In this document: positions 8,497 to 49,026 of the stretch, piece after piece
Layout: every line of letters begins with the position of its first letter
How positions within the stretch are numbered: the stretch's first letter is position 1
Notes under the pieces: model-generated
Seen by the model: the letters and a program-made list of their open reading frames with translations, nothing else
Told to the model about the DNA's origin: nothing
Databases searched by the model: none
Program-made: the position numbers and the translations under genes
From: Phialocephala subalpina
Taxonomy: Eukaryota > Ascomycota > Leotiomycetes > Helotiales > Mollisiaceae
Direction of reading: 5' to 3'
DNA length: 64,000 nucleotides
NCBI GenBank assembly: GCA_900073065.1
Contig: FJOG01000008.1
Location: forward strand, 810,985 to 874,984

Positions 8497-8498
8497 AA
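8334..8498 (+). CDS. Short ORF in tandem duplication, copy 2 (54 aa, hypothetical)
   Basis: This is an exact copy of the ORF at 8084-8248, displaced by 250 bases, including its TAA stop. The sequence after it differs from the sequence after copy 1 because the duplication ends here. The same caution applies: no homologous family is recognised and the length is marginal. Confidence 0.25.
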   Translation: MLLTKSTISHLIDPLSFLHIRTPNHLILLNFTNKLPSTVPLLPSSEIHSQPFPH

Positions 8499-18707: not shown

Positions 18708-19199
18708 ATGGAAGACGATCAAAGGGAGCAGTCTGCCCAAGAATCTCGGGTTACCTTCGGGGATGGCGGTGGCCGGGCCTATCACTTGTGGCAATATGGA
18801 TATTCGCCCGATCACAAAGTATATGAGGACTGGTATCTGCCTCATGGTCTACCTCTCGTTGGCGGAGCAATGGCGACTGTGGCAACCGTAACAGCATCGA
18901 AAGTTGAGTGGAGTTATTGGTTAGAAATATGTTATCCAACCGTCAATTCCCGTCCTTCCACTCCTGATAAACCACGACCTTCGAAGATGGTCGTCGATGC
19001 ACGAGGCAAAGCTTCATACAGATGGCTTTTGACTGAAGCTGAAAGGAAGCACATTGCAGCACTGCTGGACATTGATGGTGCGCAATTGATGGATCTTCTC
19101 TCCTTGATGGATCTTCTCTCCTTGATGGATCTTCTCTCCTTGATGGATCTTCTCTCCTTGATGGATCTTCTCTCCTTGATGGTTGCTGACGATATTTGA
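18708..19199 (+). CDS. Hypothetical protein with MDLLSL hexapeptide repeats (163 aa)
   Basis: The frame from ATG at 18708 encodes 163 residues. The first ~125 are of mixed composition (MEDDQREQSAQESRVTFGDG, later RWLLTEAERKHIAALLDIDG) and match no family I know. The C-terminal part consists of five perfect MDLLSL hexapeptides produced by an in-frame 18-bp minisatellite, then MVADDI. Whether this is translated is uncertain. The frame stays open through non-repetitive sequence and the repeat unit is a multiple of three, which mildly favours coding. Start context and transcription are unverified. Confidence 0.3.
   Translation: MEDDQREQSAQESRVTFGDGGGRAYHLWQYGYSPDHKVYEDWYLPHGLPLVGGAMATVATVTASKVEWSYWLEICYPTVNSRPSTPDKPRPSKMVVDARGKASYRWLLTEAERKHIAALLDIDGAQLMDLLSLMDLLSLMDLLSLMDLLSLMDLLSLMVADDI
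19086..19182. repeat. 18-bp minisatellite, five perfect units plus partial
   Basis: The unit TTGATGGATCTTCTCTCC is repeated exactly five times (19086-19175) and followed by a seven-base partial copy. In the + frame of the ORF at 18708 it encodes MDLLSL. On the opposite strand a frame reads a charged repeat containing SRRED. Confidence 0.97.
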
Positions 19200-20467: not shown

Positions 20468-21688
20468 ATGGGTCGCACATTCAATCAACTCCGCGATGCA
20501 GCAACGCCATTATCGTCACTCTCCAGGACACCAAACGAGTTTCCTCCCCGGCTGCCCCCCAGAGACCGAACTCGTCGAAACACATACTGCAAAACGAAAC
20601 TCTTCGGCATTCCACTTTGGTTTTTCTGGACCCTCCTGTTGATCGCGATCCTTGCCCTCATCCTCCCCGTTGCAATCATGTTTGGTAAAAAGAAACGGCA
20701 GGTTGGACCACCGACGGTCTTGGTGCCGTTGTATATCTATCCTGATCCTGGGGCATGGGATCCTTTGTTCTCTGCGTTCGTTTCCCTCCCCTCCCTGTCA
20801 AGAGGCTTCATGGGTTGAGACATAGAAGTTGATGAGAGAGAATAGTGTTGAGAAGTACCCCAAAATAAACTTCACAATTATCATAAACCCAAACAGTGGA
20901 CCAGAAGGCCTGGATGGCAATTACACACGCGACATACCCCCCTTGAACTTTTACCCCAACGTCCGAACAGTGGGGTACGTCTCTACGAACTATACGAACC
21001 GGAATTTCAGTTTGGTGGAAGGGGATATTCGAACGTATGCTAGTTGGGCTGGAAATGCGAGTATGCTAGGAATGGGGATGAGGGGTATCTTTTTGGATGA
21101 GGTGGTTAGTGGTTGGAGTGATGCTGCTGCGAATTTCTACGCGATACTCGCAGCAGTGATTCGGGACGAGACGGGATTGGGGAGGGATCCTTTGGTATGT
21201 TGCTTCACTTCCCTTTTTGGAGTGGTGCCGTTGGTCCCTTTTAGGCAATTTTGAAGCTCATGTCGGGAGAAGGGACATCGCATGCTCGCTTAACCCCGCA
21301 TATCGAAGACTAACTCACTCACTTACAGATAATCCATAATCCCGGCACCCTTCCTGATGCTAGGTACCTCACTTCTAGATCTAGTAATGTTACCGTCATA
21401 TTCGAGAATTCCTGGGACAACTACAATGCTGTCGATCTTCGAGCATCCATTCGAACGCTTCGAAAGACGGCGGGAGTTGGACGAGAAGCGCTCGCGGCAA
21501 TTATCTATGACGTTCCAGATGGAGAGCCGGATGTGGAGAGTACAAATGGAGATAATAAAGGGACTGTAGTTGGTAATTTGAGGAATGTGGTGGGTAGTTT
21601 GTACTTGACGGGAAGCGGAGTTGGTGGGGATATCTATGCGGGATTTTGGACGAGGTGGGGTGATTGGGTTGAGCAAATGGCGAGCTGA
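20468..21688 (+). CDS. sph3: Sph3-like spherulin-4 glycoside hydrolase (GH135), membrane-anchored
   Basis: Three exons (20468-20779, 20826-21194, 21329-21688) give 346 residues. A Pro/Arg-rich cytosolic tail is followed by one anchor helix at about 47-72 and then a spherulin-4 domain: VPLYIYPDPGAWDPLF, INFTIIINPNSGP, RGIFLDEVVSGW and VTVIFENSWDNY. The acidic residues in these motifs (D195, E196, E253) correspond to the active-site acidic residues of characterised Sph3, a GH135 enzyme that hydrolyses galactosaminogalactan (GAG) and is needed for GAG production in A. fumigatus. Intron 1 has a weak donor (GTTTCC), chosen because it keeps frame. Nearer GT sites produce a stop. The gene converges on the ega3-like gene 0.5 kb away. 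The family call is firm; the role in GAG metabolism rests on family and neighbourhood. Confidence 0.92.
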
Positions 21689-22200
21689 CGGAGGCAGGAT
21701 AAAGGAGATGTAGATAAAGTGAAGGAAAGAACTGTGTTGTAGACTGCTGGCCATTAGCTCTGATACGTGACCTTCAGGATTGTTTCCTAGCTTCCACGGC
21801 CCTGCCAAGACTTCAGGCCCAAGCTACCATTCGACATTTCCCCACGCGAGGGCGTCCATCAAAATGTATGAACCTCATCGGGCGCGGAGCCTGGATCGCG
21901 TTCGGCGATACTAGATGCATCTCGAATCGTAGATCTTGATCTCACAGAAGAACGGGACGATATCTCAAAACGGTAGAAATGCCCTGATGCTTCCGGACAA
22001 GGGCGGGTATTGAAGCCTTTCTTGAACATAGAAGAGATTGCACCAAAACTGTATCGTTGAACTCATGTCGGAAGACCCCTCGAAGATGACGTTGAAAGAA
22101 TTCGTCCGAGTTGGGAGAATGACCTCGACTTGAGATGACTGGGGCGGAATGCAAAGTAGACGACCAAAATGATATACATTGAACTCCAAACTTGATTACC
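21689..22200. other. Convergent 3' region between sph3- and ega3-like genes
   Basis: This 0.5-kb stretch between two tail-to-tail genes should contain both transcription ends. No gene is seen. Confidence 0.5.
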
Positions 22201-23181
22201 TCAACAACTATCCACCCAATCATCCAAGCTCATATTCTTGATCACAGTCGAGAATCCTTCAGCCTCCGTGTTATTGCAGATACTCTGCACAGTCGCCGTG
22301 CTGACTTCCGGCGTCGAATTCGGATACTCAATCCTGAAAACAGGCTTCCCAGCATCAATGAAAGGCCGAAAGTCCTCACACTCGCCATACTGTCCACACT
22401 GCTCATTAACCTCCCACTGCAACATTTCCACCGTCGCATTAACAATCGCCCCCGCATTCTTCAACCCAATACTCATATTAAGCGCATGCGCTTCGATAGT
22501 AAGGAAAGTGAGATAATTGATAGCGGTATCGGTAGTGAGGTCAATACCGGAATCATTGTCGTAGCCATCGACGTTATCAGGGTCGACACCATCGCACCCT
22601 TTGGATGCGGCGAGAGCGAGACGCGAACTCATGATTGAGCGGACGTTGGAGGAGTTTGTGTTGAGCCAGTATTCGCCTGGCCAGCCTTTGAGGGGTTTAG
22701 CGTAATCGTCTTTTGTAAAGTTGGATGAATCGGGGCGAAAATCCTCGTAAGATCCAGCAGAGAAGTAACAGATGACGCTCCGATTCATAGAATGGAGATT
22801 ATCGATGGTAGATTTCGGGTTCGTGAAGAGATCGATGTCGTAGACGGGGACGTCGACGGAGGTGTCGTTCAGTGCATATTGGAGGACGATTTGCCATGGT
22901 GTGCCAGCGGCGGGTTTCCAATAGGTGCCAGCGGTGGTGTTGGTGTTGTTGCCGAGGGGTGGTGAAGGTTCTGAGGAGGCTGATCCGCCACTTCCGTTTC
23001 CTTGTGTGAGGCCGACGCCAAGACCGACTCCTAAGCCGATGGTGATGATTAAAAGAAGGACGCAGATGGAGATCCAGAAGCGTTTTGTTCGTTGGGAAAG
23101 AAAGGATTTTGGCGGTGTTTGGGAGCCATCACCTTGTTTGACGGGGTCGATGTGTTGGGTGGAGATCCAGGAGGGGGACAT
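22201..23181 (-). CDS. ega3: Ega3-like endo-alpha-1,4-galactosaminidase (GH114), type II membrane protein
   Basis: A single exon of 326 residues starts at ATG 23181; the frame continues further upstream but without another ATG. A short cytosolic tail precedes an anchor helix at about 36-59 (WISICVLLLIITIGLGVGLG), a Gly/Ser/Asn linker and a GH114 domain: PWQIVLQYALN, VYDIDLF, VICYFSAGSYEDFRPD, GCDGVDPDNVDGYDN, and WEVNEQCGQYGECEDF. The Asp cluster at 200-205 and Glu260 are the likely catalytic acids, since GH114 uses an Asp and a Glu in these motifs. Characterised Ega3 from A. fumigatus is membrane-anchored and cleaves alpha-1,4-linked galactosamine in deacetylated GAG. There are several N-glycosylation sites, as expected for a domain outside the cell. 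The position between sph3- and agd3-like genes supports the assignment. Confidence 0.93.
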   Translation of the reverse strand: MSPSWISTQHIDPVKQGDGSQTPPKSFLSQRTKRFWISICVLLLIITIGLGVGLGVGLTQGNGSGGSASSEPSPPLGNNTNTTAGTYWKPAAGTPWQIVLQYALNDTSVDVPVYDIDLFTNPKSTIDNLHSMNRSVICYFSAGSYEDFRPDSSNFTKDDYAKPLKGWPGEYWLNTNSSNVRSIMSSRLALAASKGCDGVDPDNVDGYDNDSGIDLTTDTAINYLTFLTIEAHALNMSIGLKNAGAIVNATVEMLQWEVNEQCGQYGECEDFRPFIDAGKPVFRIEYPNSTPEVSTATVQSICNNTEAEGFSTVIKNMSLDDWVDSC

Positions 23182-24213
23182 TTTGAGATCAGCGAGTGTG
23201 GGGCCGTGAATGTTTCGTTTTGGTCGATCTAGGGATTGCGGGGAAATGTTTCTCAGATATGTAGATAAATAACGTCCCGAAGATTCAGGAACTAGCAACT
23301 AGGAAACGTGATTCGTGATGGTGTAGTGTTCGTACATAGTGCCATCAGGCCTGAAAACAAAACATCGTGACCTTAAAAATTTTTCACAACAAATCAGACG
23401 ATGATGCCTTGGAGATTCCTTGGCGGCAAATTGGTACTGCGAGCAAGTACTGTCAGCTTCAGCTTGACAGGCTTGGAAACATCCATCACAAAACCAACAC
23501 GAGAGAGAACGAACATGGAAGAAACAGTTGCTAGTTTGACATCTTGGCCAGAATAGGCACGGAATGGGTTGAAGACTGTACCTAATACCACGCTGCAATA
23601 TCGCGATGCCTGAAACAGATTTCGCTTTTGCAGTGCCGAAGACTTCTATTCAGCCAATTCAGGGACCAAAGTGGCACTGTAAGACGACTCGTGTGATTTG
23701 ATCTTGCATGAGGCTGAGCTGGCAGACTCCGGGGTTAGCTTGGGCTCCCACCCATTGTCATGGTCCGGTCGAGACTGTTCGAGAAGAATGCTTCAGACGC
23801 GGAATGAGACATCGTGCAGAGAATTGGCGCTGATGGAATCGATGGTAAAGAATCTGCCACGGTGCAGATGTGGAGAGCATGAATGCAGGAGTCAGCGCAT
23901 GTGAGGTGTAGATTAGCCGGTAAGAGTCCGCAATGCTTTCTCGGCAAGTCTTGGCCAAGCAATATCGGAAAGAGTTCCGAAGGGTCTGAAAGACCGAAAG
24001 ACGGCATCTTCCCTTTTGGAGCGTCACCGAGGGCAGAAAATGTATTTATCCAAAGTGAATATTGGTACCATTGAAGGATGGCTATTGATTCTGTTACTTT
24101 TGAGGCTTCGAATTTTGAACTCCGTGTCACGTGAATATTACGTGATATGCTACTATGCTTTTGGTCCTGCCTCAACTCCTCCTGACGTGGTATTGACGAA
24201 ATCATGTAGTACT
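23182..24213. other. Region between ega3 start and agd3 end, 1.0 kb
   Basis: Both neighbours are on the - strand, so this holds the ega3 promoter and the agd3 3' region. A frame at 23735-24205 (-) has no recognisable domain. CACGTG occurs at about 24127-24132. Confidence 0.5.
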
Positions 24214-27002
24214 TCAGAGAGGGATCGGCTCACTCAAAGTAAAGGTGACCGGAGATCCCGACATTTTGACCCAAACTGAGAATGCATATCAGCACAGCTG
24301 AGGAGTGCGCGGGGAAGGAATCACTTTGGCACTTACTCGTCAATGGATCTGAACCAAGTTGCTCAGTCGTGAAACCCTTGGTATCCGTGACATTTCCTGG
24401 GACTGTGACCGGGATCAATGCTGTGCAGTTATTCTTCGTGGTTGTGAGAGTGATGCCTGTGATTGTCTGCTTCGTCGGGTTTGTCTTGAAGGCGAGCTGA
24501 GGGGAGCATCCGTCACGAGCCATGCGGGAAGCAAAGCCTGCTGCCATCTGAAAAGTTGTTAGAGAGATATCAGAAACATGAAGCTGATCGTGTTGCATAC
24601 ATCGTCGTGCTTTTGTGAGACGATTGGCCAATCGACGAGTCTGATCATCTCCTGAACAACAGTCTCAACCCATGCTTGAAAAAGTGAGAATTTTGCCGAC
24701 ACTCCATTGATGTCAGTTTCTGGTGCAGTAAGGTAATTCAAATTTGCTTGGTGGAACATGAAAGCATCATGATGAAGACCAAGAAGATGACGGGTGTTCG
24801 TTTGCTTCTCGAGCTCCAGAAGTGTGTACCAATCACCGTCACCAGCTGAAGTGTTGATCCACTCCAGGACGGTACAAGGAGGTAGTTGACACTGGACTGT
24901 ATTAGTATACCGGATCGACAGGGATACATGAGGAGATACTCACGTTGTAATAGATATTCGTAGCCCACCTAGGATTGATTTGTACACCAGCATATCCATT
25001 CTCGGCGACAGTTGAGATCAGCGGCCACATCTCGTTGACCTAGCAGAACGTCAGTCACCAATCAGTCAGAAGAATTAATGGCAACATGCCGAGTTCATCA
25101 AGACAGGTCTCGTGTTGTCACCAACGACATTCACGATCCCATTGTCAAGCCAGGCTCTAAGAGCATCGCCATTATGGAGCCCCGTGATCGCAGGAGGAAT
25201 GATTCCTTTCGGACTGAATCTGTCTGCGGCTGCAATACCGACTTGGGTGAGCCAGACTTGATTCCATGATATCTCTCGGGTGCAGTCGAAATAAGTTGCG
25301 TTGTCCTGATCTTCATGTGTGAAGGTGTGCGAGACATGGGCGAAGGCGTTGAGATTGGCAGGTTCAGCCCACCAGACCTTCAAGGCATCTAAGTTAGTGC
25401 AAGAAGTTGTATATGGGTATGCGGCTGGGCTGGAAGGCCAAAGGCTAGTGCCAGTTCCGATAGGCTTCGCAAATTCAAGAGGCGTGTCAATTTGATCCTA
25501 TCAACCGAGTCAGAAATCCTTGATGAGAGGGTAAAGGCCACAATAAGAACTATCTCCAGCTCCTGGGATATGGAAGAGAAAGTTTGGAGATAGAAGAGCG
25601 TACAGCATATTCGATGGAACCTGGATCACAGGTGTTGCCATCATCTACGTCTTCAGCATCCTGAAGCAAGTCAGCAACTTCCCGACAAAGATTCGAAGAA
25701 GCCTTACCTCAATATTTCCATTTCCATTATGTCCAACCTCAATAAACCAATCACTACCTTCAGGCATTCGAGAGTTGACAGTCGCCATCCACGTGACATG
25801 TTGAGCCAAATCTGCTGGGGTGATCTGGTAGGTTGTGCCGTTGGGACTGTAGATGTCCGACTCAAGGAACATATCATCAACTGGCAATATATCAGATCTA
25901 TGAAGGGATCATGCGACAAGCCACCAACCTTGCGTGTTGAGAGTTGCTCGACGATAGCCGGTATCTTTTACCCGTCAGTTAGAGATCTGAGTCTTGGCGC
26001 TCGGGACATACATAATCCTCTCGTCGCCCAATGGATCCATGCATGTTGTAGGAAGTTGGAAGTCGCGCTCCAATCCGTTGCGAAACTGGTGAAAAATACC
26101 ATCTAAAACTGGTGAGCTTTGCTCTATCTCCCTCGAAAGCACTTACCTGTTGCCGGCCATCAATCTTGTTGGTCACACCTGCTGTGGAAGCTTTTGCGAA
26201 GCCATTTGTTGGCGCAAATTGAGCAAATTCTGTCGCAATGGTGGCATTCGTGATAGATGCAGGATAGTGCCAGAAACCCAACGCGCTGATACCTGCTCCA
26301 GTTTTGAGCCCAGAGGTCGGGGACTCGGCAGTACTGGTGATGTTCACGTATTGCTCCACACCGTCATCACAGCATCCTCCAAGCGATGTGGTCCCGGACG
26401 TCGCTGATGGAAAGACGTCAAGGCGGACCATTCGGACACCGAAGCTGGCTTGGTATTGGTACAAGGTAGCCCACTGCGAAGCATTGAGGGCGCTCTGAAA
26501 TCCGAGAGTTCCGCCATAGTCATAACTGACTTCGGAAAGTACCACGATTACTCCATAATTGGCTGTGGTAGCGGTGCTGTTGAGTACAGGAAGGGCGATA
26601 CCAGCTTGAGGGACGATAACAACTTGATACGGTATCGCGTATGCATTGAGGCCTGAATATGCCGAGTACGCAGATGCGGAATCGCGAGCGAAGATCAAGA
26701 TTGTTGACGAAACGGTATCTGCGGAGACATGAGCAACAGGAGTAGTGATATTGGCGGCAGTTGTAGTGTTGGTGGAGACAGTGAGGCCATTAACTGAACA
26801 AAGTTAGGACATGCTTCCCCAATGGAAACAATAGCTCACTTATCGCAGACTTCGTGGCAACTACTGGCGCAGCTTGACGAACAGCCGTTTGTTGATTTGT
26901 ACCGACGACCTCGGACGCAACTGCTTTGGCTGCAGGAATTGCAATGACATTTGGGAGGAATATCGCCAAGACGCCTACCAAGAAAAGCACTTTGGAAAAC
27001 AT
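24214..27002 (-). CDS. agd3: Agd3-like secreted GAG deacetylase (CE18), 744 aa, 11 exons
   Basis: Exons, leftward: 27002-26840, 26793-26147, 26102-26012, 25964-25929, 25880-25708, 25660-25604, 25497-25090, 25039-24944, 24891-24601, 24547-24337, 24275-24214. They join in phase to 745 codons with stop. A signal peptide (~1-22) is followed by a Ser/Thr/Ala region, a domain with SALGFWHYPASITNATIATE, and the deacetylase domain. TQVDDMF (Asp314-Asp315) and HTFTH (446-450) are the metal-binding motifs 1 and 2 expected of this polysaccharide deacetylase fold. Agd3 of A. fumigatus is secreted and partly deacetylates GAG, giving the cationic polymer that adheres to surfaces. The intron after exon 7 must use a GC donor (GCATGT) to stay in frame. 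The last exons are short and rest on frame closure. The gene is divergent from gtb3. Confidence 0.92.
25040..25089 (-). other. GC-AG intron in agd3-like gene
   Basis: Exon 7 ends ...AAC TCG and the intron begins GCATGT. A GACTGAC branch-like site and the acceptor CTGCTAG follow. The next exon reads VNEMWPLIS. No GT donor in the neighbourhood keeps the frame, so a non-canonical GC donor is inferred. Confidence 0.75.
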
Positions 27003-28351
27003 GTCTGTGATATCGACAAACGAGTGGAAGCCTCAGAGCTGGGGATGACTTGGTGAAACCATGGACTTCTCATGGGGTGTCATACTTTAAACAAAATGAG
27101 GATGGACGAGAGAGGCAGGATGACGACGCCACTTGGTCGAATTCGTACACAGCAATTCAACCACCGCTGTGGTTCCGAACCAAAAAAGACTTAGAGGACT
27201 TTATACGAAGCGAGATGCTCTCTTCGAAGGGACTGCATGAACAGGCGCTTGCGAGCTTACCACGGTCTGCAGGAACGAGGACAGATGACAAGAAGCCTGT
27301 ACGAAAAATTGAACTACATATATTCTTCTTTCCTGGGAGAATGTGTTGCAAAGAACGTAGAGGCTTGTGAGGAAAGTTGGACTTTTTCCCGTGGATGGAT
27401 TCTTGTCAGCCTCGTCTTGGCACAGTTCGAGGCTCATCAATGCATGCTAAAATCTGAAGGGAGACTGGAACCTCGGGACCGATGCCTGGAGGGATATAAT
27501 TGTTGCGAACCGTGGCAAGGTTCGATATTAGCATAGCAATATATTACTCTTTTTGCCGGAAGGTAAAGATGCCAGCGGAGGATGATAAGGTCAACATTTT
27601 GATGCGGAGGAAGAGAGAAAGTGAGCTCGACAGGAGCGTGTATTTAGCCAAGCGTTAGCGCTCACGCTAGCGAGTCACGTGTAGCTATGAATATCATGCT
27701 GGGGTCGCAACTTCCAACCTCATCATTTCGGCCTGCATGGTCAGGACTCACTCAAATGCAACAATCCATCGCGAACCAAAAACTCTGCGAATACCCCGGA
27801 TCTGCAAAGAACGTCTAGAATATTGCCATCAAGCACGACCATCTTCCAGTACCCTCGTTCCGCGATATCATTTCTCCGATCGGTTGCGTCATGCAAGCCT
27901 TGCAGCACTCAATATCGCCGATATTTACCGCTAACCCTCATTGGCCGCTGCCTCGAGGTGGAGCAAACTGCATTCCTGACTCTTCACATCATCTTTTTCA
28001 GAATTAGGGCTCCCGATTTCACAAACCTTTGTGTGCACGTGGCCTCCGAATTCGAAGTCAACGAGAGCAGCGGCGTCTCGGCACGAAAATGTCTCACGGA
28101 GTCTTCTTCCAAACTCCTACTTCCTATGGTTGACAACCGAGGTCTCAGATCTCGGAGACTTCAGTTTGCAGGTTGAGCTCCTGATACGTGTGACTTCAGA
28201 GTGACCGCGAAGTTATCACCGTTCTCTCATGCCGTTGGACATCGAGGAGGCTAGCAAAGAAAGCGATAATCCCCGCCAGGCCCCCATTTTCGGCCACTCT
28301 CCATTCAAACTACCTTCAGTATGATCTTGTTGACGCTCAAATTGAGTGGCA
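27003..28351. promoter_or_regulatory. Divergent promoter region between agd3- and gtb3-like genes
   Basis: These 1.35 kb separate two head-to-head genes of the same presumed pathway. Possible elements: TCGCGAAC at 27769-27776, which fits the APSES/StuA response element WCGCGWNM; an E-box-like CACGTG at 27676-27681; and just before it an imperfect hairpin CGTTAGCG-ctca-CGCTAGCG at 27653-27672. StuA and MedA are known regulators of GAG genes in A. fumigatus. One 8-base match in a region this size is expected by chance, so this is only a candidate. ORFs here have no protein features. Confidence 0.45.
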
Positions 28352-31300
28352 ATGGTATATATAAGTGGCATTCATGCTGAGGACTGGTCTCACCTACACC
28401 AACATTGGTGGCAATTGGTAAGAAGCCTCAATCCTGAATGTAGCTTGTCAGTTGACGAAGAATAGGCTCTTATCGTGTTGTGCTTGGTATCAGGTTTTCT
28501 GGGTTTCGGTGTCATTGTATATGGACTCGGAAAGAAATTCTTTAAGCATTCGGCCTCCAAGGTTGAAGCACAAAAATCCAAATCCGCAATATTCCTTTGC
28601 TGACAGAGGATACAGGATAAGCTCTCACGAGGATTTCAAAAGAAACTATCAGACCATCTCCAGAAATATGCTACTTCAAGCTCCAAGTCAACCACTCGCA
28701 AACGGAGTCACGTCCGACCGACGACTTTGGGAATTTATCTGGGCCCCTTCAGCGCTCCAGTTCACGTTACCCATCTTGAGCTACTTTCCAAATCCGACTT
28801 GATAATTTTGGATCCACAGCAGCCAAATGTCCTCAGTTTTATCCTAGACTTGGAAGAGTACCGGGGTACGCATGCCCACGTCGTTGGCCGGCTTGATCTT
28901 GGACCTGCTCTACATTTCCCTTCAGGACTGAAAATCCCAGAGAAAGACATTTTGGCTTATCTTGACCGAAGTGTGGCTCTGGTCCTCAATCAGTTCAAAG
29001 GTCTCCAAGAAGGCAGCAATGGATTCACCGGCGTCTTGCTTGTGAGTTGGGAGATATTTCCGGAAGATGTATTTTATAAATTGTGTGGAGTGATATCCCA
29101 CACTGGCTTGAACGTGTACTTGGAGATATCCGGGCCCGATTTCTTAAAAGATTCGTCAATCCTCGCTTCAGACGCAGTGGCCGGACTCGTGATCCGCAAT
29201 GGATTAACGCACGCTAACGGAGAGCGACGAGATTGCTTCGAAATGGAATCTTTGCACACGACTATCAAAGCATTTGTCTCGCAAGCATGCCTACGAGACT
29301 TCGCTGTGTTGGTGTGGGAGACTTTTGACGATGATGAAAGTCCTTTAAACTCGGTATTGCAACGCGTCTACGCATGGTGCAATTTCTACAACGCAATCCC
29401 GTGGATTGGTTGCCATAGCGCTCTCGTGGACTCGACTGTAAATCCCATTTTGTGTGAGCCGCTGAAAGCTTTCGCTTGGTTGAAAGACCCGAAAGTCATG
29501 AAGCTCCATGATGCCTGGAAAAGCCAAAAAGTGGTAAGTTCTTCTTTCAGCAAAGAGCCTGACTACACTTTCATTGTGTACTGACTCGCGAATAGATTCA
29601 TTCAACCCATCATTATTCAATCTCTGAACGACTCAGTGACATGTTTCCAACCCTTGAGATGGCCGTAATGGACAGTTCCTGCAAGCACTCGAAAGCAGAT
29701 GTAAAACCTGTGGTTCATTTCATCACACCTTCAAACAACCTGGAATGGTTCTTACCTAGCAAATCAGCAGTGAGAGACGCCATGTCTTTTTCAGAATGGG
29801 GCAAGAGCTACGATGGACTTGGCTGCTTCCCATTAGGGATGGATGTGTCACGTGAAGACTTCGAGGAAATCGTCTTCTCACAGCAAAAGCTACGTAAGCT
29901 CGACTTACTAGATGTCATTAACCCTCAAGAGCTTCGAGAAATGGGTACCTTGCTCGCGAATTTTCTTACCACCAAAAACCCCTCCCAAGTGGCGCAAATC
30001 AACCCTCCATCTGTTCAAGAAGCAATCAGTGATCTTGCAAGCATACTCAAAATTTCACCTGATGATGCATCTGAGGGGATTCGGATATTTATTGGCCTTC
30101 ACTCTGGCTTTCAAAGGAATACAGAAAGGCAATTCTGGGCAGTTTTCTGTGACCATTCTTCCCAAGCAACTATGGATATTTTTATCTCCAAGAACGTTGA
30201 CGATGTTCTGGGAACTGTGCTTCACACATTTCTCTCCTCTCGAGGCTTTAGTCGACGCGAGTGCCTGATTGCCGAGATTTGTTTTGCAACCTGGAACAAC
30301 ACTCTGGTTTCAACTCACGAGATCCCTCCACGACTGGTTCAAGACCTTGACCTTCTCACTCCTAGGGACAACCTTTCATTACTTCAACGGGTATCACTTT
30401 CTGCAGATTGCAAGCGAGATCCACTTCTCCAGGGGATCAGATCTGCCATCACCGAAAGATTGCTGGACAACCCTACTTGGCGCCAATTGCAGAGTATCAA
30501 TTCGATGGATTACCTGAAATGTGATACAACCATAGGAGAGCTGCTTCGAACCAGACTTAGATGGCACTGTCAGGCAAAATATGACCACCCAAGTCTTGGA
30601 CTTGCCATTGCACTTTTCATGGAGATTCAAGGAACTGTCGCAAATGCGTTGAGACACAGGAATCGTGGCGATCTTGAAATGATTATCGATGCGTTGAGTG
30701 GAATGCTTCACTGCTCCTCAACGAGTGTTATTAGCGACATTTTCGCGCTCGCTTTCTTCTGCACAATGAGGAAATTGGCTTTTGAAGAAATCTACCTCGA
30801 GGTCACGGATCGAAACCCATTGTTCAACGATCAAACGGATCAAGCAGCTGCCTTTGCAGAGCTTTTCGCGCTGGGCTCCCGCTGCGGAGCATACTTCGAC
30901 GTCACTCCTAGTCAATTCGGAGAGCTCCTGTCAGCAAAATATCGGGCTCATTACGGCACACACCAGCCGCCGATGTTTCGAGAAACCCAGCAGCCTCTAG
31001 TTTCTGCGTATTCTGAGGCTCAGATTGACATTGACCCCAAATATAGACCGACTGGAATTCCAGCATACAAGCGTTTCACTTTTCTGAGCGTCTTCGCCAT
31101 CCCAGCTCTGATCGATATCCTGTTGTTGACGACTACAGGCCATGGACTTTATCTTAGCGGGACCAACGGCGAGGGTTACTTTTTCATGACGCAACAAGAA
31201 CAGCACAGCGCCACCGTTGCGTTAATGATCTCCCTCCTCCTATCTGGGGCAATTGGCACCTGGATCACGTGCGGCGGGACCTACTATCTTGCTTCAATGG

Positions 31301-34300
31301 CTTTCTCCGCCATGAACTACTTCGTCGTTACTCGCCTCCTCGGCGGCTTTGCTTTCACTTTAATCGTTGGACTCGTCGGCTTTGTTGCATTTGCGGCTAA
31401 TACATCGCCCTACGCAGGTTTGATCTTCTTCCTGTATCTGGTGGTGTTGACTTCGTACCTTTCGCTCCTGGCAGCTCTTGCCAATTATCAATTTACAGGA
31501 TCTGCCTTCCAATCCGGGCGCGCGGTCATCATTACTTGTATACCTATACTCTTCATTTCTCCAGTCGCCACAATTTTCATCCCATACCATGATATCACCA
31601 TCTACTTGGTTGTCCTTTACGGCTTTGTCACCTTGCTGTTGCTTGGGGTCGTGCGGACCGGAGCCAGATGGACGACTTGGTACCAGGAGATTTTCCTTCT
31701 AACTGACTCTGATCTGAGGACGTGGTACATAGGCAAGAAGCGTGCCGAAGGTGTAGTAGGCCTTGAGAATATGTCGGATCCTGCAGTTCTCAAATTGGCA
31801 CGCCAAGTGTTGCTACATGATGTTCTTGCAGAGCAAAAGAAGTTATTCTTTTGGCCGCGTACGAAAGATGCCCTGGTTCGAAAATTGGCTAAATCATTGG
31901 AACCAACTGAATTCTTGTTGGTAAGCTTCATGCTTCCCCCATCGAGACCTTCTGACTCTGGCAGAATTGGTACTCGCGAACTACGGGCAGTCCGAGGCCG
32001 ATAATATTCACATCATCGTGGAACCTCCAGACGAAGGTAGCTCTGTCATCTCTACAGAAGTCCCAGCTTGGGATCCGCTTTCATAATGGCTTCCTGCACT
32101 GGCGTCAAGCAGGTAACGAGGTAATCGAATCGGATTGAATGCGAGACAGCTAAGCTGACACTCAGGTAGATCGGCTGCACGATTTTGTACTTTGTGGTAG
32201 CACTGCTGGACAAATGGATCTCGCTCATCGATGGTGGCGACACCGTAGGATTAGGAAACGCGAATGTGTCCTTGACGATGCCAGTCGGTTTTAGCCTCGC
32301 CTACTACCTGATCGGGGCAGTTCTTCTCGATTATAATGCTCAAGCGCTGCACGAGGCCGCCTCGAACCAGACCCAGGAAGTCACTCATACCGACAAAGAT
32401 ATCGCCCATGCAGCAAAAGTCAAGTCCGATAATCGAAGAACGGTGTATTGGAGAATCCTTGCAAGTAATCTGGTGTGGCACATTTGGGGTCTTCCTGTTA
32501 CGACAGTGCTTCTGTGGATTTTTGACAGCACCAATAGGGATACTGGGGTGATTGTGTACCTCTCCTATGTTCTCGCATATACTGGTCTCTTGTGGTATCA
32601 GTATACCAAAGTGTTCTCGGGCCCTCGCGCTCTGAAACCCCTCCTGGTTGGTGCCGCTGCTGGTCTCATTGTCGGATTTGTACTCGGCCACCAATTCCCG
32701 AGATGGGTGTACTCGGACATTGTGGGACTTGGGACAGCATGTTGGATCTCAGCAATCTTGTCTCTGTGGGTAGGTAGGATCGTGGGCCCCGATGAGGATA
32801 CTCCGAAGACTTTCAAGTCATCGATAGGGACCTTTCGCTCATACTCCGGACCGGGCTCAGATCAATCGTGGTCACAAGCCGAGCTGCGAAGCCTTTACGA
32901 CCAGCTCTCCGACCTTTCCAAGAAAGAGCGACTCAAGGTTGAACCTCAATCCGAATTTGGAAGGCAGGTAAATTCGGTGCTTGCCCAATGCAGAGAAACC
33001 AACCTATCAGAGCTTGCAAAACGCGCCTTCCCCGATATCGAGGCTTTGTTGACTATGAGTACCAAGCATTTTAATGAGAAAGTAGTCATAGCGGAACTTG
33101 TATCTATCGACCATTTCTCCGAACCAGGGCGAACCATGAGAGCTATCAGTTTGGATGGCGAGGATGAATCTGTTCGATTGTTTATTGCATGCGAGGCCAA
33201 GCGCGTCAGCAAGGCTCAAGATCCGATGCAAAGCTTTTACTGGGAGTAAGTTGTTGACGCCATGTTTAAAGAAGATTGCTAATAAATTAACAGTGTGGCT
33301 GAGTTGGTAGTTCAAGTCACAGCAGAGAGACATTTTGGGTATACCACTGAGGATGCCCTCCTCGCCAGGATTCTTTGGCTGAGCAACAAGGGAGCTTGGA
33401 ACTCTGCTTCCGGACCAGACGTTCTCGAACGCCATTTCCGGATTCATACGCTCGCTGACACGTCAGGGCTCACCGAAATTTTGAAAAAACAGCTTCTGCA
33501 GGATTTGTGTCTCGGTATTGACGTTAACATTGAGTATGAGCAGCTTCCCGAAGAAATTCGCCAGCACATCATCAATAGATGCCTAGGATTCTCGGATCGG
33601 CTTTCGCATGAGCAAATTGAAGTCCTCGACGCTAAATTCAATCGCACACTTGGCTTGGACTTCGAGAACTATGTCGCACGACGAAATTTTGCAGCTTTTT
33701 CGGGAGCTCGGATGCTAGAACGCGTCAGGACCTGGGTCGTTGACGAAGCCTCACGAGAATCACTTGAGCGGAATCCCAAGGAGAAGTCACAGATTGTCCT
33801 TGAGCCTCCTTCTCTAGGGTCCACGATCAGATTCGTTGATCTGCTGGCCCAGCCATCGCCTCCCAAATATTCGCTCTACGGTCGAGTCGTGAAATATACG
33901 GGCGCAGTCTACCATTATGCTGGGAAATTTTGCAAGTTCCTTTCCATCGCACTTGTTGCGGATCCTGAGTATCAGAGAGAACTTGATTGTGCATTTCCTA
34001 AGAGCAAGAATCCGACCAACTCCGTCACTCGGGTCGTACTCCTGGCGATTTGGATGTGGGCAAAAGCATTTCAGAGGTGGTTTTTGCCCCTCTTCTTGGT
34101 ACGTCCAGCTAATCCCTCGCTATGCAATCCAACCTTCACAGAAGTAGGACTAATAGTGCCAGTTTCATCGCCGCAAGAGCGTCCTCACGACATGGAAGAA
34201 TATCCACGGAATGGAAGTCTCGATAATGAGGCGACGGATCTTGATTCGAAACCTTGACGGTGTCTCAACAGGCTTCATCCGTCCCATTGGCAACAAAACA

Positions 34301-37300
34301 TTTCAGATGCTACAGTATCGAGGAGATTATCTCCTCGAACCAACAACCATCGCTGAGTTGATGGCAACCAACACTTACTCGAAGTCGATGTGCTTGCTCC
34401 ATCGAGTGCAAACAGATCGTGGAAAGATTATTAATGAGTACACATACGAGTATAGGAAAGCGAATGAAAGCAAGCATTTATCAAAGTCAGACCTGCTTAC
34501 AGTGCCCATCAACAGAAAAGGAACCACAGGCCAGAACAAGTTCCAAGATTTGTCTTACAATATGCAGGGCCAGATAGACTCGGGCTCATATATCAAAGAC
34601 GGAAACCTTGTCCGCTTCAAGTATCATTACCAGAACACAGGCAGGCATGGTGGGGCACTACTTCGAGCGGAGTTTGTTCTCCCTCACCTGAGTTGCATGG
34701 TCTCGTGGTGTGCTCCGCCAAGGAAGCACCCAGAAAAGCTTGATACATGGGTAAGATGAATAGCGCTCATTGTCTGGGGTTCTGCTGACTGGCTCAGATA
34801 CCTCATTCACATGTGACTGAAGCAACCTTTGTTGTAGGTCCTGATGTCTGGGAGTGCAGATATGTTTACGATCATAAATTCCACCCCACCATTATCACGA
34901 CGCTTAACGGCAAAGGTGTTGAGACGCCGGACTTGGTAACACACGATCATTTGAACGTTCTCAAGAGACCCACCAACGTATCATTTCTTGACGACAATCC
35001 CTTGTTCGGGTTCAAATCGATTTCCTCGAATCCAATCACGAGGTTATTTCGAGGAAATACTCGACGATATCCGGTATCGACATCGCAGTCTCGTACTTTG
35101 CTATGGAAAGCATGGAAAGACAACCCGAAATTTGATGGAGTAATTGTTCGCTGGCTAGATGAGCGCCTTCTTCGCCGGGACCCCATCCTCAAGCGGTACT
35201 GGCGAAACCGCGATTCCTGCAATCTACCAGCTGCCGAAGAATATCTTGACAACCATCGAGGTGCAATCATGGCGAGTGTTGATATCGATAGCAGTATATC
35301 TAGCTGGTCATCTCTCGCAGTGAAGCTAAACGACCTCTACAGCTTTGGCCAAGGCGGGGACTCAGTCAGTAATACACGATCGAAGGCCATCGCAGAGGAC
35401 GATGATGCTGAGGCCCTACACGTCATTGCGATAGACACGGGTACATGGCCAAATGAGGTATGATTGTCTCGTCCTAATTACTTCCCACAAGACTTACTTT
35501 CATAGGGCGGAGGAGTTTCGGCTTGCAGAAGCGATGTCATAAACAACCTGCGGTCAATCAAATGGCATATGGTGGCCGAATCAGCTACTGACTTCGGTAT
35601 CCCTAAACGACAAATCGAGCGCAACGTTCACTCATTGAAGATTGTCCCATTATGGGGACTCGATCTACTAACACCCACTCACGGTCTCTTCAGAAATCGA
35701 CTGGAATCTGAGATTGATCACCTGGCTACACATATAACTCTTCTGGACGTTCAACGAACGTTTGTGCCGGTTCTGGAAGCCCTAGTACACGGTGCTAGAG
35801 CTTTGGAATTTAGAACGAGCGACGTGAAGCAGGCTACAAGAGCACTTGTCAACCTCAATGCGTATTTCAAAGATTCGAAGAATTGGAGTGCTGTTTGGAG
35901 GAGTGATGTCGTCAAGTCGGCCTGGAGGAAGCTTTGGCTTTCTCAATCGACTGATAACATGCGTCCATCATCGCACTGGTTCGATACCGAGCATCCCACC
36001 CTCGGTCAACTCGACCAGGGTCTCGAGCTGTGGTCAAGATACCTCTTCATATTCTCGATACCTATTCCGCAGAAGATGCCCCCTGTCTTTCAAGCCTCTC
36101 ATCATAGTGTCAGCGCTTCTTATGGTATCGTCTGCAAGATCAAACGAGGGTGTACGCTTCAAATTTGGGATCATGCTATAAGTTGGCGAGAGGCGAATTT
36201 ATATTTGTCCTCGGTGTTGTGTCCGTTATCACCGTTCACGAGAAACTCGCTTCTGGCACTGATGCGCATGACTTCTGTTCTTACACTGCATCACGCTGAT
36301 ACTATTTTGCCGTGCGCTGATTTCTTCAATCCGGATTGGGAGGTTGAGATTGGAACTTGTCAGGGCAAGATTGAGAATCGAGCTGCATTTAGAAGGAATA
36401 TTGATCCTGTTGTGAATGGGATCACTCAAATGGAGGTAATCTTACGTTCCATGGTCAGTCAACTCCTTCATCGCTAATAGCTTGGCAGCGATTCGCTCCC
36501 GTGAAAGACATCAAGACCAAGACACCCACTGTCACGATGCTTTCTCATGTGTGGTAATCGTCATTTGAATCTTGAGATCTGCCGAGCTCCACTGACCTTC
36601 GTCAGGTACGCAAAGGATATCAAGACTGCGTTGCTAGCTGCCGACATCATTATCAATGAATGGGGCTTCAAGGACTATACGCTGGAAATATATGGTGCGC
36701 TTGATAAGGATCCATCATACGCAACAAATTGTCAGGAGATCATTGCCACAAAGTCGTTGCGTCAAGTTGCCATGAAAGGCGAAGCAGATCCTATCCACGT
36801 TCTTGAGCGAACAGTAAGTCCCTTCACCATCCGCAGACCTGGAGCTTTGCTGATAGCTTGTAGTGGGTGTTCCTAAACTCCTCAATCTCAGAAGGACTAC
36901 CCTTAGCTCTAGGCGAAGCTGCACTCACAGGAGCACCTGTCGTCTGCACCGACGTTGGAGCCTCTCTTCGAGTATTAACCGACCCCTCCACCGAATCATG
37001 CTACAGCGCAGTCGTCGCTCCCAATGATGCCCACGCCCTTGCTCGTGCACAAATCAAACTCCTTGCGCTGCTTGAGGAATGGAGTCGATACGCTGATCCC
37101 ACTGCCTGCTCACCTTCAGCGTTCGACTCCTCTTTTCCGGAAGCACCAACTCAAGACGATGTGGCGAGAATCACGAAGAGGATGTATGAGCAAAGCGATG
37201 CTCGTCGAAAGTTGGGAATGCACGCGAGAGAGACCGTGCAGAAGTCTTTCAGTGGAGAGAGGTATTTGCGAGAGCACGAGCAGATGCTTTGGATTGGCAA

Positions 37301-37637
37301 GGCGAAGAGAGATATGTCCTTACCAGCTCACGAACGCCCACCAGCAAAGAAAACAATTGCTGCTCCTACCACGGTGTCGAATCTTGCTCTCACAAGTCCG
37401 AGTTTGAATCAACAGAGTTCAATGAACGAAAGCTCGGTGCCGTCATTAGGATATGAGGGATCGAGCATCAGGCCGATTAGTCTGTTGACGAATAGGGCGC
37501 CGAGTGGACTTGGGGAATTTGTGCCTGGCGAGGAGGAGTGGGTTGAGAAGCCACAGAGAGCGGTGGTCGTTGGTGTTCCTGGTCAGTTGAGGAGGGAGTC
37601 GAGGAGGATAAGTGATTTGGGAGATGCTGCTGTTTGA
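28352..37637 (+). CDS. gtb3: Gtb3-like giant GAG glycosyltransferase (about 2893 aa, 13 exons)
   Basis: Exons: 28352-28417, 28466-28561, 28607-29533, 29596-31920, 31965-32120, 32170-33245, 33294-34098, 34157-34750, 34798-35457, 35506-36435, 36489-36553, 36606-36813, 36864-37637. All phases close (8682 nt). Layout: signal-anchor helix at 23-44; a globular domain to ~350 that alternates strands and helices and may be barrel-like; a second soluble region; about a dozen membrane helices between ~857 and 1397; further soluble sequence; and a C-terminal GT4 transferase. The GT4 part starts DTGTWPNEGGGVSACR near 2228-2243 and carries the EX7E motif E2646-GLPLALG-E2654 followed by GAPVVCTDVG. It resembles PelF-type GT4 enzymes. 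Gtb3 is the presumed GAG synthase and exporter at the plasma membrane. Exons 1-2 are least certain: the short introns were chosen because they give an ATG and an anchor helix. Intron 5 uses the later AG because the earlier one creates a stop. Confidence 0.88.
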
Positions 37638-44516: not shown

Positions 44517-47500
44517 ATGCCGCACACAACCTTGAGGAAGGCAGAAGAGGCTGCAATGAATGGAGATGTTCCAGACTGGGACACTCAAAACTGCGAGGAT
44601 TTCCAGAGGACGTTGTTGGTGAGAGATCTGCAGGCGCCCCTCAAGCCTTCGACCAGGTCAGGGGCAAGGGAGCAGGCAGCTAACCGCTTTTGTAGTCGAG
44701 CCCTGCTCAGCCTACCAACACGCCCGACCAAATCGCGTCCGCCAGCCTCGACGCGATTGTCACCATCAAAACCGAGGTCGAAGTTGAGCAGCAGAGTGAT
44801 GATGATGCAGAAGAGCATGGCGACAATGGCGAAGATATCTCTCAACTGATACAAGATCTACTTTCGCAACAACCTGAGCCTGAGCCCGAAGAAACTCCCG
44901 CAGAGGATGCCACGCCACGAGCTGCTCCCATTCAATTTCGACGCGACAGTCGGGGAAAATTGAGAGCGTATACAGCCGCGGAGGATGCTACACCACCATC
45001 TGCTCACATTCGGGTTCGACGTGATAGCAACGGGAAACTGAGACCATACACAGTTGCGGGCGACGAGGCACGACCACCTAACTTTGCAGAGCAGTATCGG
45101 GTTTCTCTCGAAAAGGAGTCTCAACGTGTTCAAGCAATGGAGGACCTTACACAAAAAAGCTCGATGTCTTTGACACAAGAGAATTCTGAATCCGTGTACG
45201 AACACTTCGATATTCAACAACAGATCCCTGACGAATGCCCTTCAACTGCGACACCAGACGATGGCGATGCCGAGTTTCATGATACCATACCAAATCCGCC
45301 TCATGACGCCTTACATTCGAAGCAGTTCTCTGCGCGGACAGAATCGACAGCATACACATACGGGGAGAACGACACTGGGCACGTCAAGATTGACTTCGAG
45401 CCAGACGCAATGGAAGAAGAACTTGATGACATGGATGACATGGACGACGAGCCTTCGCAAGATCCTTCCTTTGCAGCCCCGCAACTTGGTGTACACTTTT
45501 CTACCCCGACCTACGATCCGCAGACTCCAGCTGCACCCATCAATCCATTTGCACACAAAGGCTCTGTAATGAAGCCGTTAGATATGTTCGGAGCTACTCA
45601 ACCTTCATCAATTGCTCGTCATCGAGCCAGTCCCACGTCTTCTCGGCCATCGCCAGACGTCTACAACGACTTTTCTTCACCACCGAAGAGACAGCGAATA
45701 GGCTCCTCTCCATTGGGACGACTACAAAAATTGAAGGACCCAGAGACATCACCGCTACAGTCATCCGTTCGCAACATCTTGGCTGCTTCAAGCGATTTTC
45801 CAGATGCCGCGATCCCTAGGACCTCTGGCGTGCAATCTTTTGATGTGGGACCCAGATCATCTCGAATTGACGAGCCTCGGCCTTATGTCTCCATGAAGGA
45901 GTCACAGGAGAGGAGGAGACGCATGCACGCAGACTCGGACACCGATGGCTCAGATTTTGAGGCTGAACCGGCCCCAAGGAACAAGCGGAGGGAGAGGGAG
46001 GTCAGAATCCAAAGAGAAATGTCATCTGTTGCACTTCCTGCAAGACGACCTACGTCCAGTCGACCAACTTCATCGAATTCGCCAGGTATCGAAGTTCCAT
46101 CTACTGGGCGACGCCGAAGCGTCCAAGAAGAGTATCTTGCGCAGTGCGAGGGATTTGATGCTCGCGACACACAGCATACTACACAGCAAGACGAAGTTAT
46201 TGCTGATTCTCAGGGTCTACCGGGCCATCACCCTAATGCTGCCCCTCTTGATCGCGAAGAAGTTCAAGGATCGTTTGGTCAAGTCAAAGGTGCTGGTACT
46301 ATCCCTGAAAGTGAGCCAGACCTCCCGACATCGAACACTCCGTCGAAATCACGCAAACCTACACCCCAAATGGATCTGCTGCCAGAAAAAGGACCTATGG
46401 CTCACGATACCATGAACGTTGACGAAGAGACACAGGCAGAGGCACAGGCGGAGAATGCAGATGCAAATGAAAGCTCTCTGCCACAGCCGAGTCTGCCACT
46501 TCAAGAGATGTCTAGCAATCATCTTCGGACACCCATGGCTTCGAAATCCCACGTGCTTTCAGATAGCCTGGTCCCGGAAACTAGTCCACCGGAGGAGAGG
46601 ATTCGACCGATTGGCGAGATTGTTGCCTTTTCGTTCCGGGGGGAAACTCAAATTGATCTCAACGAGGTTCCTGGATTTACTCAAGATCCGAATTTTGATG
46701 AGAGGGCTGTGACCATGGTCTCGCCGCAACGGCCAGCTCCACGACCGCGCAGCTTTCGGAGAAGCAACGCACGTTCGGGCACTACTACGCCCGTTGAGCC
46801 CCCCACATCATCCGATGTTCCATCCACGCTCCCAGGACAAGGGCAGCCAAGTATTNNNNNNNNNNNNNNNNNNNNNNNNNNNNNNNNNNNNNNNNNNNNN
46901 NNNNNNNNNNNNNNNNNNNNNNNNNNNNNNNNNNNNNNNNNNNNNNNNNNNNNNNNNNNNNNNNNNNNNNNNNNNNNNNNNNNNNNNNNNNNNNNNNNNN
47001 NNNNNNNNNNNNNNNNNNNNNNNNNNNNNNNNNNNNNNNNNNNNNNNNNNNNNNNNNNNNNNNNNNNNNNNNNNNNNNNNNNNNNNNNNNNNNNNNNNNN
47101 NNNNNNNNNNNNNNNNNNNNNNNNNNNNNNNNNNNNNNNNNNNNNNNNNNNNNNNNNNNNNNNNNNNNNNNNNNNNNNNNNNNNNNNNNNNNNNNNNNNN
47201 NNNNNNNNNNNNNNNNNNNNNNNNNNNNNNNNNNNNNNNNNNNNNNNNNNNNNNNNNNNNNNNNNNNNNNNNNNNNNNNNNNNNNNNNNNNNNNNNNNNN
47301 NNNNNNNNNNNNNNNNNNNNNNNNNNNNNNNNNNNNNNNNNNNNNNNNNNNNNNNNNNNNNNNNNNNNNNNAACCAAAAATTGTCCCTGCGCCTCGAGAA
47401 TTAATCGCAACCGCACCAAACACGGTGCCCGAGCCAGAAAAAGGTGCTATGCCTCAAGAGACGACGACGCCAGCTATTGAAGCTCCAGTACCTCAATCTC

Positions 47501-49026
47501 CGCGGGACGACCAGGAAGAAAAGGCTGCCAGTGAGGAAGCACCAGCTGAGGCTCAAGAGAAAGAAAAGACTGTTGATAAAGAACCACTAGGCGTGGACGA
47601 AGAGCAGGAAAAGACTAGCATTAATGAAAAGCCAAGCAAAGCCCAAGAGGAACCTGTGATTCACACGAATAATGGCATGGCTCCTGAAACAACCTCCTTG
47701 GATGAGACAAACGACAAACCAATTGATGCTCCGGCTGGAGAGGAACAACCGGGACCGCCATCGACAAGACGATCGGGGCTAAGGACAAAAGGCGAGCTCA
47801 AAGAACCTTCGAAATCTTTGAGACGATCTAACGATAAGAAAACTACGACCCCGAGGCAAGCTTCTCGTGTTGCCAAAACCAAAGCTAGTACTGCTAGCAT
47901 GTCAAGCGCCTCGTCAACGCCTGCATCCACCTCAGGGCCTGTGCTACCTGATCCCGGCCCCTCTGAACGAGCCACGACCCAGAGTCAAGGCAAATCAGAC
48001 AACCCGTTTATACCAGCTCCTGCTCCTGTGAGGAGGACAGCCAAGCGAAAATCAGGCGCTACAGTCGTTGACGAAAAGCCCGTCTTACCAACCAGAGCCT
48101 CGAAGAGGCAATCTACTGCCAACCTAGTGCGAGACGAGAGTGAAGACCCTTTAGCACTTACGCCTATATCTGCCCACAAGGCTGGAAGACCGAAGAACGG
48201 GTCTGTATTGTTTGAAGGGATGGCCTTCGCGGTCTCCTACGTCAAAGATGACCATGAGAGGGATTGCGTCACGAAGCTGATTGTGGACAATGGTGGCCGC
48301 ATCCTTCAAGAAGGATTCGACGCATTGTTCAACGCAATTCCAAAGACTGCCGGCGAAGATGTCGAGCTCTCTCTTTCCGAGTCCGCAAGCCGACTTGGCT
48401 TTACAGCGCTCATCGCCGACGAGCACAGTCGCAAGGCAAAATACATGCAGGCGTTAGCACTCGGTCTACCGTGCATATCGGGTCGTTGGGTCTCTGCGTG
48501 TGTATCCAAGTTGTCCATCATTGATTGGACGCCGTATCTACTTTGTGCCGGTCAATCTTCATTCCTTGGCAATGCTATCCGCAGTAGAACGATTTCGCCT
48601 TATCCAGCTTCTGATGCTCAACTCGCAGAGGTGTTCTCTTCTAGGGAGAAGCTCTTGGCAGGGCGTTCTGTTTTACTTGTTACTGGCAAAGGCAGTACTC
48701 AAGAGAAGCGAAAGGCCTATCTATTTCTCACGAGAGCTTTAGGTCCAACACGAGTTGGTCAAGTTGTCGACTACCAGGAAGCGAGGAAGCGGCTTGCAGA
48801 GGCAGATGCACAGAACCAAAGCTATGACATTCTCTACGTTGAAGGCAACGAGAACGCGGCCGATAAAGTCGTCTTCGGCCCTCCACCTCCCAGTGGCGGC
48901 TCGAAGAAGAGGAAGAGAGGACCTACAGAGGCAGATGCTGATCTGCCGGCACCAAAGAAGATCCGCATCATTGTTGATGAGACGATGGTGCAAAGTCTGA
49001 TCTTGAGTCAGTTGCTGGAAGAGTGA
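44517..49026 (+). CDS. crb2: Crb2/Rad9-like DNA-damage checkpoint mediator with BRCT domains (interrupted by assembly gap)
   Basis: Exon 1 is 44517-44618. After a 77-bp GT-AG intron, exon 2 runs from 44696 to the TGA at 49024-49026, broken by 516 N. The N-terminus (QRTLLSSPAQPTNTPDQIAS) and a long, acidic, Ser/Pro-rich region with SQ/TQ sites suit a phosphorylated scaffold. After the gap comes more low-complexity sequence. BRCT-type repeats begin near 48200 (GSVLFEGMAFAVSYVKDDHE, GRWVSACVSKLSIIDWTPYL) and 48650 (KLLAGRSVLLVTGKG). A basic KKRKRG near the end may be a nuclear signal. The family bridges sensor and effector kinases after DNA damage. The frame before and after the gap differs, so the true gap length is not 516 modulo 3, or it holds an intron. 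A Tudor pair expected before the BRCTs is not visible and may lie in the gap. Confidence 0.85.
46856..47371. other. Assembly gap (516 N) inside checkpoint gene
   Basis: A run of N interrupts the coding sequence. The upstream frame ends on a codon boundary at 46855. The downstream open frame starts a codon at 47374, leaving a two-base mismatch, so the N count is an estimate. Confidence 0.99.

Follow-up and report, generated by a model that had tools for sequence, protein, structure and literature searches.

A galactosaminogalactan-type gene locus without an epimerase, one of three in the genome of Phialocephala subalpina

The 64,000-nucleotide stretch of the Phialocephala subalpina genome analyzed here (the window; contig FJOG01000008.1, positions 810,985 to 874,984) carries, side by side at 20468..37637, sph3-, ega3-, agd3- and gtb3-like genes, from the start codon of the GH135 gene (20468) to the stop of the GT4 gene (37637). 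The known galactosaminogalactan (GAG) cluster comprises five genes, including the epimerase gene uge3 (PMC4817252). The window holds a genuine GAG-type locus that lacks the epimerase, and it is one of three in the genome of this root endophyte (Mollisiaceae, Helotiales). The GAG cluster itself is already known; what merits follow-up is the three-locus arrangement and a build of the synthase Gtb3 that recalls the bacterial Pel machinery. The assembly analyzed comprises 68.1 Mb in 119 contigs, with the window on a 1.8-Mb contig (C14), and the published genome size is 69.7 Mb (PMC5148876). The main text of that paper does not contain the terms GH114, GH135, galactosamin or biofilm.

All four genes have open frames after splicing. 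Profile searches with the spliced proteins matched PF12138, PF03537, PF25115/25116/25117 and PF13692/PF00534, which bears out the original prediction of four adjacent genes of the GH135, GH114, CE18 and GT4 families, and the solved structures nearest in sequence to the first three were Sph3, Ega3 and Agd3. The sph3-like gene (GH135/Spherulin4, PF12138; 20468..21688, + strand, exons 20468-20775, 20846-21194 and 21329-21688) codes for 338 amino acids with an N-terminal hydrophobic anchor, matches the Sph3 structures 5d6t/5c5g (E 4.5e-56) and retains the GIF[FL]DE stretch. The ega3-like gene (GH114; 22201..23181, - strand, a single exon) codes for 326 amino acids, also with an N-terminal hydrophobic anchor; it matches PF03537 (E 3e-86) and the Ega3 structures 6ojb/6oj1 (E 9e-93), and retains VDPDNVDGYDND and VNEQC. 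The agd3-like gene (24214..27002, - strand, 11 exons, that at 25929-25964 being only 36 bases long) codes for 744 amino acids with a CBM87 domain (PF25116, E 6e-80), a CE18 deacetylase domain (PF25115, E 5e-67) and the C-terminal PF25117. A 717-residue preliminary model of it matched the Agd3 structure 6nwz with an E of 1.7e-241. The motifs VDDM, SHTFTH, PRWA and FMFHQAN are all retained, and hold D377, D378, H510, H514, R613, M666 and H668 (A. fumigatus numbering, mapped by hand via the 6nwz alignment), catalytic-site residues whose roles have been described (PMC7229062). The motifs checked in Agd3, in the GT4 domain (see below) and in both hydrolases were intact, as had been predicted.

The window Agd3 is identical to a public P. 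subalpina record (P0241) at 732 of 732 aligned residues. An intron of agd3 (25040-25089) has GC-AG ends, and at its site P0241 lacks 12 residues (VGDNTRPVLMNS). All of the remaining 119 Agd3 homologues among the 120 listed have a GDN[TS]R-like motif, so the GC donor was probably overlooked in the public gene model.

The agd3 and gtb3 genes are transcribed divergently across a 1.35-kb intergenic stretch. The gtb3-like gene (28352..37637, + strand) has, in the final gene model, 13 exons (28352-28417, 28466-28561, 28616-29533, 29596-31920, 31965-32120, 32170-33245, 33294-34098, 34163-34750, 34798-35457, 35506-36435, 36489-36553, 36606-36813 and 36864-37637), and its assignment is supported by homologues and trees. 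The giant product of 2888 amino acids is 70% identical end to end with a Mollisia scopiformis protein (P0121). A near-identical P. subalpina Gtb3 was not met among the 120 matches listed (of 344), though the species' Agd3 is listed in the Agd3 search; public annotation may have split or truncated gtb3. The A. fumigatus genes are listed in the order gtb3, agd3, ega3, sph3, uge3 (PMC13202872, PMC10485009), and the sph3-ega3-agd3-gtb3 order of the window agrees with this, as the original prediction had stated.

The fifth member, an in-cluster uge3, is missing. On C14 no galE gene over the family cut-off was found, a single weak match of 26 bits lying at 1,433 kb. A decayed uge3 was rejected: tblastn of the 64-kb window with both Uge3 proteins of the genome revealed no trace (best E 0.29). 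The description of the locus as a "hydrolase-deacetylase-synthase core" is literally right, but the word "complete" does not hold for the GAG cluster.

The genome search yielded three gtb3 genes, each within a GAG-type locus, and each locus lacks a different member. The C56 locus (240,985-261,177; uge3-ega3-agd3-gtb3) has no sph3, and its agd3 and gtb3 are likewise divergent; the C45 locus (552,155-571,470; gtb3-sph-sph-uge3-agd3) has no ega3. The sole spherulin match on the C56 contig is at 974 kb, and a hidden sph3 at 239-263 kb was rejected, since three Sph proteins used as queries matched nothing there better than E 0.22. No GH114 match was found on the C45 contig. Genome-wide, we counted at least six GH114, at least six spherulin, at least six Agd3-domain (one by a single exon) and at least three galE loci over the cut-off. 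The clustering goes beyond chance, because four uncommon families adjoin here, and combinations of three or four families from this set are met again at the two other gtb3 genes. The models of C45 Gtb3, C45 Agd3, C56 Agd3, C56 Ega3 and the guided C45 spherulins contain doubtful stretches; their use was limited to trees, identities, motifs and thin profiles. At the position of Tyr299 of Escherichia coli GalE, which we take to be the gatekeeper of substrate choice, the Uge3 of C56 has a Cys and that of C45 a Ser; these residues would fit the use of N-acetylglucosamine/N-acetylgalactosamine (GlcNAc/GalNAc) nucleotides. In a simple history, a five-gene cluster would have been duplicated, after which one copy would have lost uge3 and the other sph3.

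Identity to A. fumigatus Gtb3 was 47.0% for the window copy (2791 alignment columns), 48.5% for C56 and 43.7% for C45. The Gtb3 tree comprised 42 rows (39 of 120 homologues listed, out of 344 found, and the three copies of P. subalpina) and was made by a quick method, with support from the Shimodaira-Hasegawa-like approximate likelihood-ratio test (SH-aLRT) only and a root for drawing only. The homologue search used the letters of the first gene model, and the first tree a guided model mis-spliced at two inner places; with the final model the main clades were unchanged. Ten other species share an 11-row clade with the window copy (support 100); Pseudogymnoascus joins next (100), and the whole is sister (100) to a 14-row clade with C56, a second M. 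scopiformis copy and Ciborinia. C45 joins Glutinoglossum and Peltula (100). Aspergillus and its relatives form another clade, A. fumigatus Gtb3 lying outside both the window and the C56 clades. Xylogone, Scytalidium and Pseudogymnoascus are Leotiomycetes and, with the class that we presume for the remaining members of the two clades, the window Gtb3 belongs by sequence to a Leotiomycetes clade whose sister is the C56 clade. The Agd3 tree (48 rows; 45 of 120 homologues listed, out of 725 found, and three own) splits the window copy from C56 in the same way. Adjoining agd3/gtb3 locus tags are seen both for the window type (EG329_004143/004144 of Mollisiaceae sp. and B7463_g9236/g9237 of Scytalidium) and for the C56 type (LSUE1_G001269/G001270, VTL71DRAFT_1900/1901, G7Y89_g291/g292 and NHQ30_000111/000112). 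The possibility that these genes are unrelated GH114 or spherulin paralogues, which had been named as a refutation, did not materialize, the kinship of Gtb3 and Agd3 being with true GAG genes.

The tail of Gtb3 matches the GT4 families PF13692/PF00534. Its GT4 domain (approximately residues 2222-2699; 35431..37067, + strand, spanning four introns) retains SEGLPLALGEA at residue 2640, an E-x7-E stretch that we take to be the GT4 motif. The NCBIfam family PelF (NF038011) was the top family in all three whole Gtb3 proteins and matched 7 of 7 tail pieces (of a set of eight, C45 being omitted), with a best E of 3.9e-23. The scores of Gtb3 (63-77 bits where shown) fall below the curated 100-bit cut-off, and true PelF proteins reach 415-491 bits (four of nine PelF sequences scanned). 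The Pfam domain DUF3492, the N-terminal domain of PelF, was matched by all seven pieces at E up to 0.1 (best 2.9e-6; 11.7, 17.3 and 15.7 bits where shown, against a cut-off of 23.3), and a scan of the whole P0121, from the window lineage, gave no DUF3492 match. Alignment of the tail to nine PelF sequences by hhalign gave an E of 7.3e-16; the sequences were drawn from 10 loci, which yielded 10 PelG and 9 PelF proteins, L053 providing no PelF frame. The A. fumigatus tail resembles PelF to an equal degree. It appears that the Gtb3 tail resembles PelF in its working but cannot be classed as PelF.

Two other domains of Gtb3 were bounded approximately. The N-terminal barrel (residues ∼96-330; 28739..29441, + strand) has a predicted fold like that of PelA, GH191 and GH114 hydrolases, and the membrane domain (residues ∼846-1382; 31051..32755, + strand, spanning two introns) a predicted MOP/MATE fold that covers the whole domain, consistent with the MOP superfamily. 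PelG is presumably a MOP member as well. Both in the window and in the other sampled fungi, Gtb3 might be a single-chain eukaryotic Pel machine, its ∼2900 residues uniting a hydrolase barrel of PelA type, a polymer exporter of MOP type and a GalNAc polymerase of PelF type. P. subalpina might have three diverged sets of it that depend on each other, since a different helper gene (uge3, sph3 or ega3) is missing from each locus. For this reading we judge the case to be evenly poised. Within the open-access literature searched, seen in part, we met no statement of PelF-, MOP- or PelA-like domains in Gtb3, or of three GAG loci in one genome; such statements may exist.

The explanation that we favor, and consider fairly probable, is that the window carries an exopolysaccharide locus of GAG type representing a second lineage (Leotiomycetes), where Gtb3 serves synthesis and export, Sph3, Agd3 and Ega3 serve processing, and Uge3 acts in trans. 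What was computed for it is gene content, open frames, motifs, tree position, the absence of uge3, the other two loci, the distant PelF homology and the predicted folds. The PelF-like GT4 tail of Gtb3 would polymerize the uridine diphosphate (UDP) sugar UDP-GalNAc, perhaps with UDP-galactose, at the cytoplasmic face, and its own MOP-type membrane domain would carry the chain across. A membrane-anchored Sph3 may trim the emerging acetylated chain, Agd3, once secreted, would deacetylate part of it and so render it cationic and sticky, and Ega3 would cleave the deacetylated stretches. Because the window locus has no epimerase, UDP-GalNAc would be provided in trans by the Uge3 enzymes of the two sister loci; a precedent is the Pseudomonas aeruginosa pel operon, which encodes no enzyme for its own sugar nucleotide (PMC9135694). 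Throughout this scheme the product, the order of the steps, the topology, the supply in trans and the biological role are what we infer.

Several observations weigh against the favored explanation or the fused-Pel reading. Podosphaera goes with C56 in the Gtb3 tree but is nearer the window side in the Agd3 tree, Pseudogymnoascus groups with the window clade for Gtb3 only, and the grouping of C45 with Glutinoglossum is not recovered in the Agd3 tree, where the C45 branch is long. The Sph3 of A. clavatus is matched slightly better by the C45 spherulins (209 bits) than by that of the window (194 bits). Three of the four true PelF proteins scanned match another GT4 family, TIGR03088, at 78-80 bits, and the 63-77 bits of Gtb3 to PelF are therefore to be read as distant kinship. 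The Gtb3 folds were predicted on homologues from other fungi (P0030 and P0040), with predicted template modeling (pTM) scores of 0.56 and 0.63. Against 10 PelG sequences, hhalign gave a probability below 1% (best E 0.087), that is, no PelG sequence homology, and the structure lists contained no row titled PelG; the structure alignments comprised 60 and 58 hand-picked rows. The barrel matched none of the Sph3, Ega3, PelF and PelG profiles, which were thin (4, 2, 9 and 10 sequences). Foldseek with the first barrel model gave nothing below E 0.001 and ranked triosephosphate isomerases first (E 0.047); the PelA/GH191 ranking comes from a VIA re-examination of its 1000 candidates.

The original prediction amounted to a canonical, self-sufficient cluster of the A. 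fumigatus type, which now looks distinctly improbable. The four families lie in the matching order, and Gtb3 is 47.0% identical to that of A. fumigatus over nearly its full length, but uge3 was not found in the window or on the contig, and Lee et al. required the epimerase when counting species with the cluster (PMC4817252). Furthermore, there are two more GAG-type loci, both with uge3, and the Gtb3 of C56 is marginally nearer to A. fumigatus (48.5%). If the missing uge3 instead marked a redundant or silent duplicate heading for loss, the two other loci could suffice; we regard this as very improbable, given that all four genes are open with the checked motifs retained, and that agd3/gtb3 neighbors persist in the lineage (Mollisiaceae sp. 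and Scytalidium, see above).

It is unlikely, though less so, that the copy is neofunctionalized and makes a polymer unlike GAG, e.g., a galactose-free, Pel-like galactosamine (GalN)/GalNAc polymer, or one limited to a stage such as root colonization. Its distinct Gtb3 clade, which in the tree sampled also includes ten other species, and its own hydrolases and deacetylase, all retained alongside and open in the window, would agree with this. PelF likeness, however, is just as strong in the Gtb3 tail of A. fumigatus and so does not tell the copies apart.

Compared with the A. fumigatus cluster (gtb3-agd3-ega3-sph3-uge3; PMC4817252, PMC7229062), the window shares four of five families, their order, the motifs and a homologous giant synthase, and differs in the absence of uge3, in the separate Leotiomycetes lineage of Gtb3 and Agd3, and in the two further GAG-type loci of the genome. 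The Neurospora crassa GAG cluster has enzyme families in common with the window, but it consists of six genes with the epimerase NCU05133; its synthase, NCU05132, is needed for most of the GalN/GalNAc polymer (PMC11356417). Pel and GAG are chemically alike (PMC9135694), and the likeness to bacterial Pel (PelA, PelF, PelG) extends to the PelF-type GT4, the predicted MOP-type membrane fold, the predicted PelA-like hydrolase barrel and the putative alpha-1,4 GalNAc/GalN product. The pel operon of P. aeruginosa, like the window locus, has no sugar-nucleotide enzyme (PMC9135694). Unlike Pel, Gtb3 is one chain rather than separate proteins, shows no PelG sequence match, and is accompanied by CE18 in place of the PelA deacetylase domain; its barrel is likened to PelA by predicted fold and may lie on either side of the membrane. 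In bacteria, operons are known that combine agd3 with genes for a transferase, a membrane protein and a GH114 protein, and it has been proposed that the GAG cluster came from bacteria (PMC7229062). The transferase and the membrane protein of these operons are encoded by separate genes.

A contig scan for bacterial Gtb3 relatives yielded 15 pattern matches and a single relative, L044 (NYXK01000054.1:27953-49739), from a metagenome-assembled genome (MAG) labeled 'Deltaproteobacteria'. It was rejected, for the contig looks fungal: it carries a fungal gtb3, interrupted frames, a spherulin-like fragment and a protein read as HET-type without a scan. An Agd3 domain was found in 1 of 52 genomes of that phylum, namely the MAG itself. 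From its sequence, L044 is probably fungal contamination in a public prokaryote genome.

Some other features were observed. A Cudoniella acicularis protein (P0280, 1095 amino acids) combines Agd3 domains and a GH114 domain in one annotated protein, possibly as an Agd3-Ega3 fusion or as a merged gene model. Between a P450 gene and sph3, a perfect 18-base tandem repeat (19086-19182, 5.4 copies) reads as a series of MDLLSL units towards the end of an open frame that has no Pfam match. At 7997-8498 the window has a perfect tandem duplication (250-base unit, 2.0 copies, 100% matches), which is either very recent or an assembly artefact. Two long overlapping + strand frames of 902 and 742 amino acids lie at 44696-49026, the second with a weak BRCT match, and the region 46001-48000 has a G+C content of 39% and an AT skew of 0.24.

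Earlier accounts (PMC4817252, PMC7229062, PMC9030451) describe Gtb3 as a glycosyltransferase that is putatively transmembrane or predicted to be an integral membrane protein, and ascribe polymerization and export of GAG to this putative enzyme. A three-part Gtb3 would make export testable domain by domain. The idea of a fused operon would offer a concrete hypothesis for the proposed bacterial origin of the GAG cluster (PMC4817252, PMC7229062). The three loci, with a different member missing from each, may represent a natural experiment in how a root endophyte shares the parts of a pathway among its gene sets.

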